A DNA stretch of 64,000 nucleotides from Sulfolobus sp. A20. GTDB taxonomy: Archaea > Thermoproteota > Thermoprotei_A > Sulfolobales > Sulfolobaceae. The stretch lies in the NCBI RefSeq assembly GCF_001719125.1, contig NZ_CP017006.1:1550001-1614000 (forward strand). The letters are read 5' to 3'. This document shows, one piece after another, positions 13,430 to 18,639 of this stretch. Positions within the stretch are counted from its first letter, which is position 1. Each line of letters starts with the position of its first letter. Below the pieces are notes generated by a model that saw only the letters and a program-made list of their open reading frames with translations, was not told the DNA's origin and searched no databases. Position numbers and translations under genes: made by a program.

Positions 13430-14905
<1,476 letters not shown>

Positions 14906-15850
14906 TTAAGACCACCCCTTTAATTTACCCGTGGAAACGTCCTCCACGGGAACCCACTCCTTTAACCAAGACTCGGGAATTGGTCTACCCCAATAATCAC
15001 TCCTATATCTAAACTGTTCATAATTCCAAACAACTGGTTTCCATTTATCTGGATCTAACACAACATAGTCGTTTGTGAAAAACTCTATTCTATTCTTATC
15101 ATAATCTCTAAGGTAAATATAATATCCCTCCGTAGCTCCATGTCTCCCTGGACCTCTCTCGATACTGTCCCAAAGACCTACTGATGCTAAAATATCACAA
15201 GCCCTAATAACATCCCTCACATCATGAACGTAGTAAGTTTCATGATGGAAACCCGGTACGTTTTTTGAAGACTTAGCTATTGCAATTTCATGAGAATCTC
15301 CCCTCTTAGTTAACCAAACGACTTGTCTCTGATTATCCTTATCTAAATACCACTCAGTCTCATAGTATCCCATGAATTTCTTCAGAAAATCAACTTCTTC
15401 CTCTAGATCTCTGACCATATAATTCACATGGGCTATCCTAACTGGGGAAACCCCTTTATGCTTATAGAAGGCTAACCTCAGATCTCCAACGTACTCCATA
15501 TCATAATATAGAAAGATAGGAATACCTTGTGGAGTTTCAAATAATAATCCTTCTTCTACACCTTTTTCTTTATGCTTATAGCTCTTGATTCCAAGACTGT
15601 CCAGCTCTTGCCTAGCCTTATCTATCTCACTGGGATTCCTAACCCTAAAACCAATATAAGATAGTCCAGTTGAGTCAGCCTTTTTTAGTATTAAACTATG
15701 ATGTTGACCCTCTTCAATTCCTCTTAAATAAACGTAATCTCCATCTTTTTCGGTTTCAACAAGACCTAATAGTTCTGAGTAAAAATATATAGCCCTTTCC
15801 AGATCGGTAACCCTAACTTGAACGTGAGAAACACGTAATACATCTATCAT
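14906..15850 (-). CDS. VOC-type extradiol ring-cleavage dioxygenase
   Basis: A 314-residue two-domain vicinal oxygen chelate protein of the catechol 2,3-dioxygenase / homoprotocatechuate 2,3-dioxygenase type. Domain 1 (residues 1-120) is the non-catalytic copy. Domain 2 carries the iron ligands His141 (RIAHVNYMV), His202 or His203 ([10 protein letters not shown]) and Glu256 (NRIEFF). It opens the catechol made by the neighbouring hydroxylase. A TATA-like TTTTTTAAAC at 15868-15877 lies about 22 bases upstream of the ATG, so this gene may have its own promoter and carry hpaB with it. Confidence 0.92.
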
Positions 15851-15904
15851 TAGGTAATTGATAGGCGTTTAAAAAATTAAATTATATATTAAACTTGTTA
15901 AATG
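15851..15904 (-). promoter_or_regulatory. Promoter of the dioxygenase-hpaB unit with a possible operator
   Basis: On the minus strand a TATA-like box at 15868-15877 precedes the ATG at 15850. Just upstream of it, at 15887-15904, is TATTAAACTTGTTAAATG, which resembles the 18-bp palindrome TATTAAACTAGTTTAATA at 17935-17952. The promoter is fairly clear; the operator is inference. Confidence 0.45.
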
Positions 15905-16371
15905 ACATCGCATATTTGCCTATAAGCCCTGTTGAAGTGAATTATTGGCTTAAAATCATTCCTCACAATTACTGAATTAATTACCTCACCCGTAATGATG
16001 GCATGATCTCCTATATCAACTACGGAGTATTTTTTAGCCTCTATGTAAGCGTAGCTATCTGCTATTACTGGCATCTTATTACTTGCCTCAAAATACTTAA
16101 CGTAATTAAATCTCTCCTTAACCGGTTTCATAGCGAATATATCCAAAATCTCCTTCTTATCTACAAAATTTACAATAAAACCTTCACTTTCTTTAAAGGG
16201 TAAATCGTTACCTTTAACCTTATCAGCTGAAAACATGACTAATGGTGGGTTAAGTGATAGGGAATTAAATGTATTTACAGTCATTCCCACGAGGGTGTCT
16301 TTCCACCTCGTAGTAACTACTACAACACCCAGTGGAAACAATCTCATTACACTCTTTATCTTCTCGCTCAT
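15898..16371 (-). CDS. Flavin reductase (HpaC-like)
   Basis: A 157-residue flavin-reductase-like domain protein, with VVVTTRW and VGMTVNTFNSLSLNPPLVMF as the FMN-binding stretch typical of HpaC/ActVB reductases. It would supply reduced flavin to the HpaB oxygenase encoded two genes downstream. A TATA-like TTTATTAAAAA lies upstream of the ATG, and a perfect 14-bp palindrome GTTTTATATAAAAC occupies 16404-16417. Confidence 0.88.
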   Translation of the reverse strand: MSEKIKSVMRLFPLGVVVVTTRWKDTLVGMTVNTFNSLSLNPPLVMFSADKVKGNDLPFKESEGFIVNFVDKKEILDIFAMKPVKERFNYVKYFEASNKMPVIADSYAYIEAKKYSVVDIGDHAIITGEVINSVIVRNDFKPIIHFNRAYRQICDVI

Positions 16372-16421
16372 TTGTGTATATTTTTAATAAAGAGAATATA
16401 TAAGTTTTATATAAAACAAAT
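16372..16421 (-). promoter_or_regulatory. Flavin reductase promoter with a 14-bp palindrome
   Basis: The gap between the reductase start and the MFS stop codon holds a TATA-like box near 16385-16395 and the perfect palindrome GTTTTATATAAAAC at 16404-16417, placed where an upstream operator or BRE-overlapping site would be. The palindrome is AT-rich and could be chance. Confidence 0.4.
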
Positions 16422-17900
16422 TTAAGGTGAAATTTCGTCCAATCTCTTATTTGCTGTTTTATGCCCAGCAGAAATAGCTATTATTGTAGATATTAATTGA
16501 AATACTCCAATTATTATAAACACTTCTATGACTAAGCTCGTAGTAACACCTGATGATATTAATGAACTAACGAAAGAGGCTACTGCTATTAATCCTATCC
16601 CTCCACCTATATGCCCTAAACCATCACACATAGCAAACCCAGTGCTCCTAGCCCTAGTGGGAAAGCTTTCAGCCGTCCACGTATACGATATAGGTACCCA
16701 TAAATTAAATCCATAAAACAATATTATTGAGCCTAGGAATGATAAACCAACATTTGTCCCCGCTAATGCTATTAATATACCTCCCAAGAAGGTGAACACA
16801 ACAGATATTATAGTCCAAACCTTTCTCTCTAACCTATCTCCAGTAAAGAATGCTGTTATGGGGACCAATATAAACCCTATCACCCCAACAGATGCTATAA
16901 TCCCTGCTTCGGGAGGAGGGTATCCTAAAGAAGCTAGAACTGATGTTAAACCGGCAGCTAATGTATACACCGTCATATAGCCAAAAAACCACATGGAAAA
17001 TAGAATACCAAACCTCTTGATATACCTTGAATTTCCAAAAATAGTCTTTAGAGCATCAACATAAGAATGTTTTTCTGGAATATAGGGACTAATTATACTA
17101 GGCAGTGGAGGCAATTGCCCAAGCTTCTTACTGGCTTTAGTCTCCATTATTCTCACTATCGTTTCTGCCTCATATATTCTACCTTTAGAGATTAACCATC
17201 TTGGTGATTCGGGCAGACTAAATCTTAATAGTAATCCTACCAAGGAAAGTAAAGCTCCTATCCCATACATAACCCTCCAACCATTTAAAGCAAAGAAGCC
17301 AGAAGCCCCTAAGGCAAAAGGTAATCCTAGGGGAAATGGAGCAGGAGGAGTGGTAAGTAATAATCCTAACCATAAAGCTACTGCAGCACCTAATGTCGAG
17401 AATAAAAATACTAGACTAGTGTACTTAGCCCTACCGTTTATAGGTGCTACCTCACCAATATAAGTGTTAACGATCGCTAAATCAGCGCCAACGCCTATAC
17501 CGGTTATAGTTCTTGCAATAACAAAATTGATGTAATTATTAACAAAGGTGTTGTATAAACTTCCCAATCCGGTAATTATCATTGTGATCATTAGCATCCT
17601 TCTTCTCCCTATCAAATCAGAAACTGGTGATAAAAAGAGGGATCCTATTACGTAACCTACGAGATTAAGTAATACTGCAGGTCCTAGTAATACTGGAATT
17701 ATAGGAGAGGAGGGGCTAGAAACGTGAAATATTGTTAAGGCTGTCTGTATAAAAGAGACGTTTATATCAAAAATATCATAAAAGGTAAATAAGAATCCGA
17801 TACCTAAAATACCTATAAAAATATATGATAATCCCCAAATAGGTATTCTATCCATTCTAGCAATTATCTCTCCAGCTTTCAATTCAGCCTTCTCTGTCAT
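16422..17900 (-). CDS. MFS transporter, sugar-porter/aromatic acid:H+ symporter-like
   Basis: A 12-helix major facilitator of about 492 residues. It carries SPVSDLIGRRRM in loop 2-3, RTITGIGVGADLA in helix 4, LPESPRWL after helix 6, and a matching second half ending GHKTANKRLDE. The PESPRWL motif is typical of sugar and aromatic acid symporters. As the first gene of the aromatic cluster it probably imports the phenolic substrate. The frame extends to a TTG at 17906, but the ATG at 17900 lies about 25 bases after a TATA-like ATTAAAT, so I choose it. It is divergent from the HTH regulator. Confidence 0.9.
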   Translation of the reverse strand: MTEKAELKAGEIIARMDRIPIWGLSYIFIGILGIGFLFTFYDIFDINVSFIQTALTIFHVSSPSSPIIPVLLGPAVLLNLVGYVIGSLFLSPVSDLIGRRRMLMITMIITGLGSLYNTFVNNYINFVIARTITGIGVGADLAIVNTYIGEVAPINGRAKYTSLVFLFSTLGAAVALWLGLLLTTPPAPFPLGLPFALGASGFFALNGWRVMYGIGALLSLVGLLLRFSLPESPRWLISKGRIYEAETIVRIMETKASKKLGQLPPLPSIISPYIPEKHSYVDALKTIFGNSRYIKRFGILFSMWFFGYMTVYTLAAGLTSVLASLGYPPPEAGIIASVGVIGFILVPITAFFTGDRLERKVWTIISVVFTFLGGILIALAGTNVGLSFLGSIILFYGFNLWVPISYTWTAESFPTRARSTGFAMCDGLGHIGGGIGLIAVASFVSSLISSGVTTSLVIEVFIIIGVFQLISTIIAISAGHKTANKRLDEISP

Positions 17901-18015
17901 AAACAAAATTTGGATATTAGAATTTAATATTCATTATTAAACTAGTTTAATATAGCATGTAGATTAGATTAAATTATCAAAAGTTTTATATCGTTTAAAG
18001 ATTATAGTATTAATT
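17901..18015. promoter_or_regulatory. Divergent promoter region with an 18-bp perfect palindrome
   Basis: This gap drives the MFS/aromatic cluster leftwards (TATA-like ATTAAAT near 17921-17928) and the HTH regulator rightwards (TTTTATAT near 17982-17990). Between them at 17935-17952 lies TATTAAACTAGTTTAATA, a perfect 18-bp palindrome, directly upstream of the leftward TATA box. It is the most likely operator in the window; the divergent HTH protein is the obvious candidate to bind it. Confidence 0.65.
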
Positions 18016-18639
18016 ATGTTAAAAAAGGTAGAGGTTCTAGTTGAACATGAGGATTGTTGGACTTTTCATATGCCGTTTAATGCCTATACAATAAATTTAG
18101 AGGTTTATCCTCATAAGAACTATTTGAGGAGTAGGATCTTGGTTGAAAACCTAGATAAGGATATGGTAAATTCTATGAAAAATCATAGGAGTGTTGTTAG
18201 GCTAAATAAAGTAAGTAAGTTTACAAATAATAACAGTTACTATATAGATTTTTTAAATGTATATAAGGGATCGATTGCTGGAATATTATATGATAGAGAG
18301 GTATTAATACTAGGAAATACTATAACCGAAAAGAAAGAGAAGTGGAGCTTCGTAACTTCTAGTAAAAGCATAAGGGAAATACTAGATGATATAAGAAATA
18401 CGAGCAAAGTAGTGGACTATAAGGTAACAGATTATAATCCAATGCTTCATCCGAGCTTAACGGATATAGAGAAAAGAGTAATAATAGCGGCATTTAATCA
18501 AGGATATTTAGATTACCCGAGGAGGGCAAGTGCTGAGGAGTTAGCGGAAAAACTAAAAATGAGTAAGGTAACATTCCTTTATCATCTTAGAAACTCACAG
18601 AAAAAATTAATGAAATACTTTATAGAGAACATGCTATGA
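18016..18639 (+). CDS. Bat-type (HTH_10) transcriptional regulator
   Basis: A 207-residue protein. The C-terminal 55 residues are an HTH_10 domain like that of bacterio-opsin activator: LTDIEKRVIIAAFNQGYLDYPR, then the helix-turn-helix ASAEELAEKLKMSKVTFLYHL. The N-terminal 140 residues form a beta-rich domain, probably a ligand sensor, that I cannot assign. It is divergent from the aromatic transporter and convergent with an acyl-CoA synthetase, overlapping that gene by 6 bases. Position suggests it controls the aromatic cluster, the acyl-CoA module, or both. Several related regulators occur in each Sulfolobus genome, so the ligand is unknown. Confidence 0.88.
   Translation: MLKKVEVLVEHEDCWTFHMPFNAYTINLEVYPHKNYLRSRILVENLDKDMVNSMKNHRSVVRLNKVSKFTNNNSYYIDFLNVYKGSIAGILYDREVLILGNTITEKKEKWSFVTSSKSIREILDDIRNTSKVVDYKVTDYNPMLHPSLTDIEKRVIIAAFNQGYLDYPRRASAEELAEKLKMSKVTFLYHLRNSQKKLMKYFIENML

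Follow-up and report, generated by a model that had tools for sequence, protein, structure and literature searches.

A perfect 18-bp palindrome at positions 17935-17952 (TATTAAACTAGTTTAATA), located between the leftward gene of an MFS transporter (ATG at 17900) and the rightward gene of an HTH_10 regulator (ATG at 18016), is likely to be the operator of the leftward genes for aromatic uptake and catabolism, and the product of the adjacent HTH_10 gene is its predicted binder and activator. In the window, i.e. the whole 64-kb stretch of Sulfolobus sp. A20 DNA that was analyzed, two partner operators precede the flavin reductase and dioxygenase genes (Table 1). Both were missed in the original prediction, which gave the position and sequence of the palindrome between the two divergent starts exactly, and the site is part of a wider operator family.

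The transporter finds its best NCBIfam match in the aromatic acid/H+ symport family, below cut-off, and the dioxygenase reaches 383.7 bits against TIGR02295 (cut-off 321.4), a score consistent with 4-hydroxyphenylacetate or a similar compound as the substrate. Among the relatives, genome G014 has a transporter gene with an interruption of about 1.1 kb (L068:7673-8761), and in G016 the gene is apparently frame-broken (L064:8343-8356); in both the upstream operator is intact.

Table 1. Genes, promoter elements and operators of the aromatic catabolism locus (window coordinates)
Feature	Position	Strand	Remarks
HpaB-type hydroxylase	13430..14905	-	Pfam HpaB_N/HpaB; adjoins dioxygenase gene; without own operator
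Extradiol dioxygenase, HpaD type (3,4-dihydroxyphenylacetate 2,3-dioxygenase)	14906..15850	-	TIGR02295
Third operator ATTTAACAAGTTTAAT	15888..15903	-	37 bp before dioxygenase start
Flavin reductase, HpaC-like	15898..16371	-	Pfam Flavin_Reduct; HpaC-type models below cut-off
Second operator CTTAAATTTGTTTTAT	16411..16426	-	39 bp before flavin reductase start
MFS transporter, aromatic-acid/sugar porter type	16422..17900	-	Pfam Sugar_tr/MFS_1; probable start ATG 17900
Putative TATA box TATTAAAT	17922..17929	-	-29 to -22 from MFS ATG; leaderless transcript assumed
Putative BRE of MFS promoter	~17930-17935	-	abuts operator
Palindrome TATTAAACTAGTTTAATA	17935..17952	.	16-bp operator core 17936-17951; core end 35 bp from MFS start codon
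Putative TATA box of HTH_10 gene TTTTATAT	17984..17991	+	predicted from sequence; palindrome ~30 bp further upstream
HTH_10 regulator, 207 residues	18016..18639	+	Pfam HTH_10; candidate binder

Rarity and conservation of the palindrome

TATTAAACTAGTTTAATA is the longest perfect palindrome of the window, and its copy at 17935-17952 is the only exact one in the 2,688,317-bp genome. The original prediction held that perfect 18-bp symmetry is uncommon by chance, which is an overstatement: in Markov simulations 0.45-0.65 perfect 18-bp palindromes were expected per 64 kb, and the chance of finding one in a 109-bp gap of equal composition was approximately 1%. Since such palindromes are expected at these rates, symmetry by itself is insufficient to establish a function of TATTAAACTAGTTTAATA, and the decisive evidence is its conservation and fixed position.

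The gene order around the palindrome is the same in all six congeners, five of which carry TATTAAACTAGTTTAATA unchanged; in the sixth (G012) both centre bases are changed, giving a CCGG centre with the symmetry kept (TATTAAACCGGTTTAATA). In the gap alignment of four divergent genomes, 16 of the 18 palindrome columns are invariant, as compared to 19 of 149 columns elsewhere (Fisher p 6e-11). In most genomes of Metallosphaera, including those of M. yellowstonensis and M. javensis, the palindrome is present in the same divergent gap with 0-1 mismatches in the core; in G006 it is more degenerate. Loss of the palindrome in close relatives with the same gene order had been named as evidence against a function; all seven genomes of the genus have retained it, as has Metallosphaera. 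As it is conserved across the genus, 17935-17952 is almost certainly a functional site. A chance palindrome of AT-rich DNA is plausible on composition, with about 0.5 expected per 64 kb; however, the conservation, the symmetric change of the centre and the position before three genes that is fixed across the family rule out this origin and leave it practically no probability. The sequence TTTAAACTAGTTTAAA is also contained in G023, G025 and G026 (L040, L041 and L042), all of which except G023 are devoid of the aromatic cluster and of a close regulator homologue.

Genome-wide pattern searches with the exact palindrome revealed no regulon, and matches with one mismatch elsewhere were about as frequent as in the reversed-pattern control. 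The combination of GTTTAAT and ATG spacing alone gave little excess genome-wide (85 vs 75). One site with two mismatches (G000:1497513) was rejected, being inside a coding region.

Three operators before the catabolic genes

A scan upstream of the homologous genes yielded a 16-bp site with the consensus nTnwAAyNNGTTTnAT, the more constant half of which is the promoter-proximal GTTTnAT, and TATTAAACTAGTTTAATA is the best of its three members in the window. The three sites end 35 bp ahead of the transporter start codon (17900), 39 bp ahead of that of the flavin reductase (16371) and 37 bp ahead of that of the dioxygenase (15850), and beyond these operators the relaxed site pattern has 3 matches in 64 kb. 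The flavin reductase site of Sulfolobus sp. A20 is weak (4 mismatches, at 39 bp), and better-matching versions are present at 36 bp in the flavin reductase promoters of relatives. The position of the third operator, compared by eye, is retained in nearly all of 30 homologous dioxygenase promoters (35-44 bp). A separate 14-bp palindrome (GTTTTATATAAAAC, window positions 16404-16417) overlaps the flavin reductase promoter and adjoins the second operator.

For counting, a site was required to have at most 4 mismatches in 16 positions and to lie 33-40 bp from the start codon, with start codons assigned by rule and transcription starts inferred. By this measure, sites precede 19 of 27 transporter genes (Fisher p 1e-24), 14 of 30 dioxygenase genes (p 7e-16) and 9 of 18 reductase genes (p 9e-12), as compared to 5 of 520 other, control ORFs; kinship was ignored in these p values, which are thus indicative. 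No site was found at 33-40 bp in any of the 27 promoters of HpaB-type hydroxylase genes. The operator spacing is retained in those Sulfolobaceae that have these genes, even where the transporter is unlinked.

The promoters served by the site

The gene of the transporter is unlinked from that of the regulator in G022, G023, G028-30 and G004, and in each case the site stays with the transporter; in G022 no regulator was detected by Pfam among the genes around the unlinked transporter. In Metallosphaera, the reductase gene follows closely behind the transporter gene and has no site of its own. The distance from the palindrome to the HTH_10 start varies between 53 and 111 bp, none of 29 regulator promoters has a site at the operator position (33-40 bp), and the site is missing before the regulator gene wherever its gap is not shared with the transporter. 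Since the site moves with the transporter and is found at the regulator only in a shared gap, the operator belongs to the catabolic promoters, just upstream of their BRE/TATA elements. Conservation and the fixed spacing to the transporter thereby bear out the original prediction that a regulatory site lies immediately before the leftward TATA box of the aromatic cluster.

The same spacing and distribution lend no support to the accompanying proposal that the HTH_10 gene regulates itself, and on these grounds autoregulation was rejected as the main role of the palindrome. A bidirectional operator, which would serve the catabolic genes and in addition autoregulate the HTH_10 gene, would fit the location of the site, which in the genus as well as in Metallosphaera is the gap between the two divergent genes, but given the varying distance, the absence from regulator promoters at the operator position and the absence before non-divergent regulator genes it is improbable, and control of the HTH_10 gene through the palindrome is unlikely.

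The candidate binder

The 207-residue protein matches PF04967 (HTH_10) with 69.5 bits (cut-off 23.1, E 2.2e-19), and a match to this domain was obtained for all 17 of its relatives. In the predicted structure a ferredoxin-like N-terminal domain is followed by the HTH at residues 148-200; the AlphaFold model reached a pLDDT of 87.6 with a 7-sequence alignment and of 39.8 with the single sequence. Its closest folds are Ta1207, ACT, PII and NikR, with Z 8-10 over about 70-130 residues, a likeness of the model that would indicate only a common regulatory fold, and no solved structure was convincingly related to the regulator by sequence. In 147 genomes of the order, relatives at this level are confined to Sulfolobaceae. 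Residues of the recognition helix are near-invariant (SKVTFL[YH]H[LW]RNA), while the overall identity drops to 40%.

Because of its neighbourhood and its co-occurrence with the cluster, the adjacent HTH_10 protein is the most likely candidate for the protein that binds the palindrome. The genome of Sulfolobus sp. A20 encodes 16 HTH_10 genes, and it is conceivable that an unlinked regulator, either another HTH_10 paralogue or a member of another family, binds the operators, in which case the adjacency of the HTH_10 gene would be fortuitous or its product would act at other sites. In G004, the dioxygenase and the closest homologue (39% identity, long branch) are unlinked. However, with few exceptions, genomes that have the cluster have a homologue of the adjacent regulator beside it, no regulator adjoins the unlinked transporter of G022, and none of the 15 further HTH_10 genes of Sulfolobus sp. 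A20 has a similar palindrome next to it, so that an unlinked binder is unlikely. Other palindromes are located near two of those HTH_10 genes, namely CTTAATAAGCTTATTAAG and CTTAAACGTGTTTAAG (L116 ~147-164 and L125 ~2818-2835).

The cluster is present twice in Metallosphaera genomes, and each copy is accompanied by a separate HTH_10 regulator (L069/L133, L129/L130, L131/L132, L076/L075, L082/L081 and L128/L077). In the second cluster type the distal half-site contains TGAAA and the recognition helix SKVTFLHHLRNAYRK, a pairing that provides a natural test of co-divergence between regulator and operator.

Mode of action

The TATA-like boxes of the three catabolic promoters look weak, and as they lie at about -32 to -22 from the start codon, the transcripts are probably leaderless. 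If so, the three operators occupy approximately -36 to -55 from the start codon and abut the BRE. The arrangement characteristic of an activator site, a semi-palindrome directly upstream of the BRE/TATA at a fixed distance, is present at the three genes (35-39 bp) and likewise in relatives. In archaea, the binding sites of activators are usually upstream of the core promoter and those of repressors overlap it or lie downstream, and several activator boxes of Sulfolobus occupy such an upstream position beside weak BREs (PMC5817253). Since the site is upstream of the BRE/TATA and not over it, activation is likelier than repression, and is the probable mode of the operator.

In the proposed mechanism, the adjacent HTH_10 protein would bind as a dimer to the operators before the transporter, flavin reductase and dioxygenase-hydroxylase genes, would sense an aromatic compound via its ferredoxin-like N-terminal domain, and, when bound to the operator, would help TBP/TFB to bind the weak core promoters. 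The same protein might instead occupy the same site as a repressor to be released by an aromatic inducer. A protein bound at an operator that abuts the BRE could hinder TFB, and the induction of the phenol cluster on its substrate (PMC7820114) is also expected of release from repression, but the location upstream of the BRE/TATA at all three promoters and the weak look of their TATA boxes make a repressor doubtful.

A wider operator family and the phenol cluster

In seven genomes, the composite pattern AAACNNGTTTNAT-N34-38-ATG has 32 matches, as compared to 13 for the reversed control. In G013-G016, two or three of the matches per genome are next to a paralogous HTH_10 gene, 34-37 bp from starts (L174, L175, L177 and L176), in a phenol cluster of genes for aldehyde/alcohol dehydrogenases, two acetoacetate-decarboxylase-like proteins, an extradiol dioxygenase, an HbpS-like protein, a reductase and a phenol hydroxylase. 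Weaker operators precede further genes of these four clusters. Their gene order matches that of S. solfataricus Sso1218-Sso1233, a cluster whose expression rises up to 384-fold on phenol, the decarboxylase-like Sso1221/1222 being up 77- and 82-fold (PMC7820114). In comparison to the cluster studied here, the Saccharolobus phenol cluster (toluene-4-monooxygenase/catechol 2,3-dioxygenase) has its own, paralogous HTH_10 gene (27-29% identity) and, at an equal distance before several of its genes, operators of the same type. It differs in its substrate pathway, in the site centre, which is usually AA, AT or TT and not TA, and in being experimentally phenol-induced.

The hpa-type cluster may respond to another compound. 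A second dioxygenase homologue of S. solfataricus, Sso2054, shows hardly any expression during growth on either phenol or glucose (PMC7820114), and its separate location suggests that it is the counterpart of the dioxygenase of the hpa-type cluster; if so, the inducer of this cluster is probably not phenol.

Unlinked FAA-hydrolase genes in four genomes, one of them assigned by Pfam, have an operator 35-38 bp before the start (L180:4998-5013, L181:4130-4145, L182:5316-5331 and L183:4027-4042); the gene is divergent from a molybdopterin dehydrogenase gene, and no HTH_10 gene was seen near it. Such an unlinked gene is possibly a member of the phenol regulon. Sso2941, a gene of the FAA-hydrolase family that may be a counterpart of these operator-bearing genes, is reported to be up 88-fold (PMC7820114). 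In G017, the same operator type precedes an acetoacetate-decarboxylase-like gene (L136:6240-6255) and a Rieske ring-hydroxylating dioxygenase gene (L136:13120-13135).

In Sulfolobaceae, several HTH_10 regulators of aromatic breakdown probably share this operator type. On balance, we lean slightly towards AAAC-N2-GTTT at about -36 being the common operator of ligand-sensing HTH_10 activators of hpa-type, phenol-type, ring-hydroxylating and FAA-hydrolase genes, in which small differences of the centre and flanks would confer paralogue specificity.

Comparison with known regulatory systems and significance

The ARA box, ArnR box 1 and the Ss-LrpB site of Sulfolobus are likewise short, semi-palindromic and directly upstream of the BRE (PMC5817253), whereas the site described here is AAAC-N2-GTTT, is associated with aromatic catabolism genes and has an HTH_10 protein as the candidate regulator. 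The haloarchaeal regulator Bat shares an HTH_10-type C-terminal domain with the 207-residue protein, and its activator sequence, present upstream of bop, brp and crtB1, is likewise one site at several promoters of one pathway (PMC1447603). Bat carries GAF and PAS domains, in contrast to the ferredoxin-like N-terminal domain of the model; neither domain was matched in the 17 regulator relatives, in which HTH_10 was the sole domain to reach the cut-off. Thus the protein was rejected as Bat proper, lacking both GAF and PAS/PAC. The upstream activator sequence of bop contains ACTAGTT, to which no weight was given in this analysis. In bacteria, the analogous 4-hydroxyphenylacetate genes (hpa-meta) are controlled by HpaR, a MarR-family repressor. 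In contrast to HpaR, no MarR domain was found here by Pfam, with HTH_10 alone above cut-off, and an HpaR-type repressor was rejected as the regulator class.

No regulator named for the aromatic catabolism genes of Sulfolobaceae was found in the literature searched, and a defined operator, its promoter position and a candidate regulator are offered here for these genes. As the same operator type fronts a cluster that is strongly induced by phenol, the regulator, the inducer and the activation mechanism are directly testable, and these promoters are candidate inducible expression tools for thermoacidophiles.
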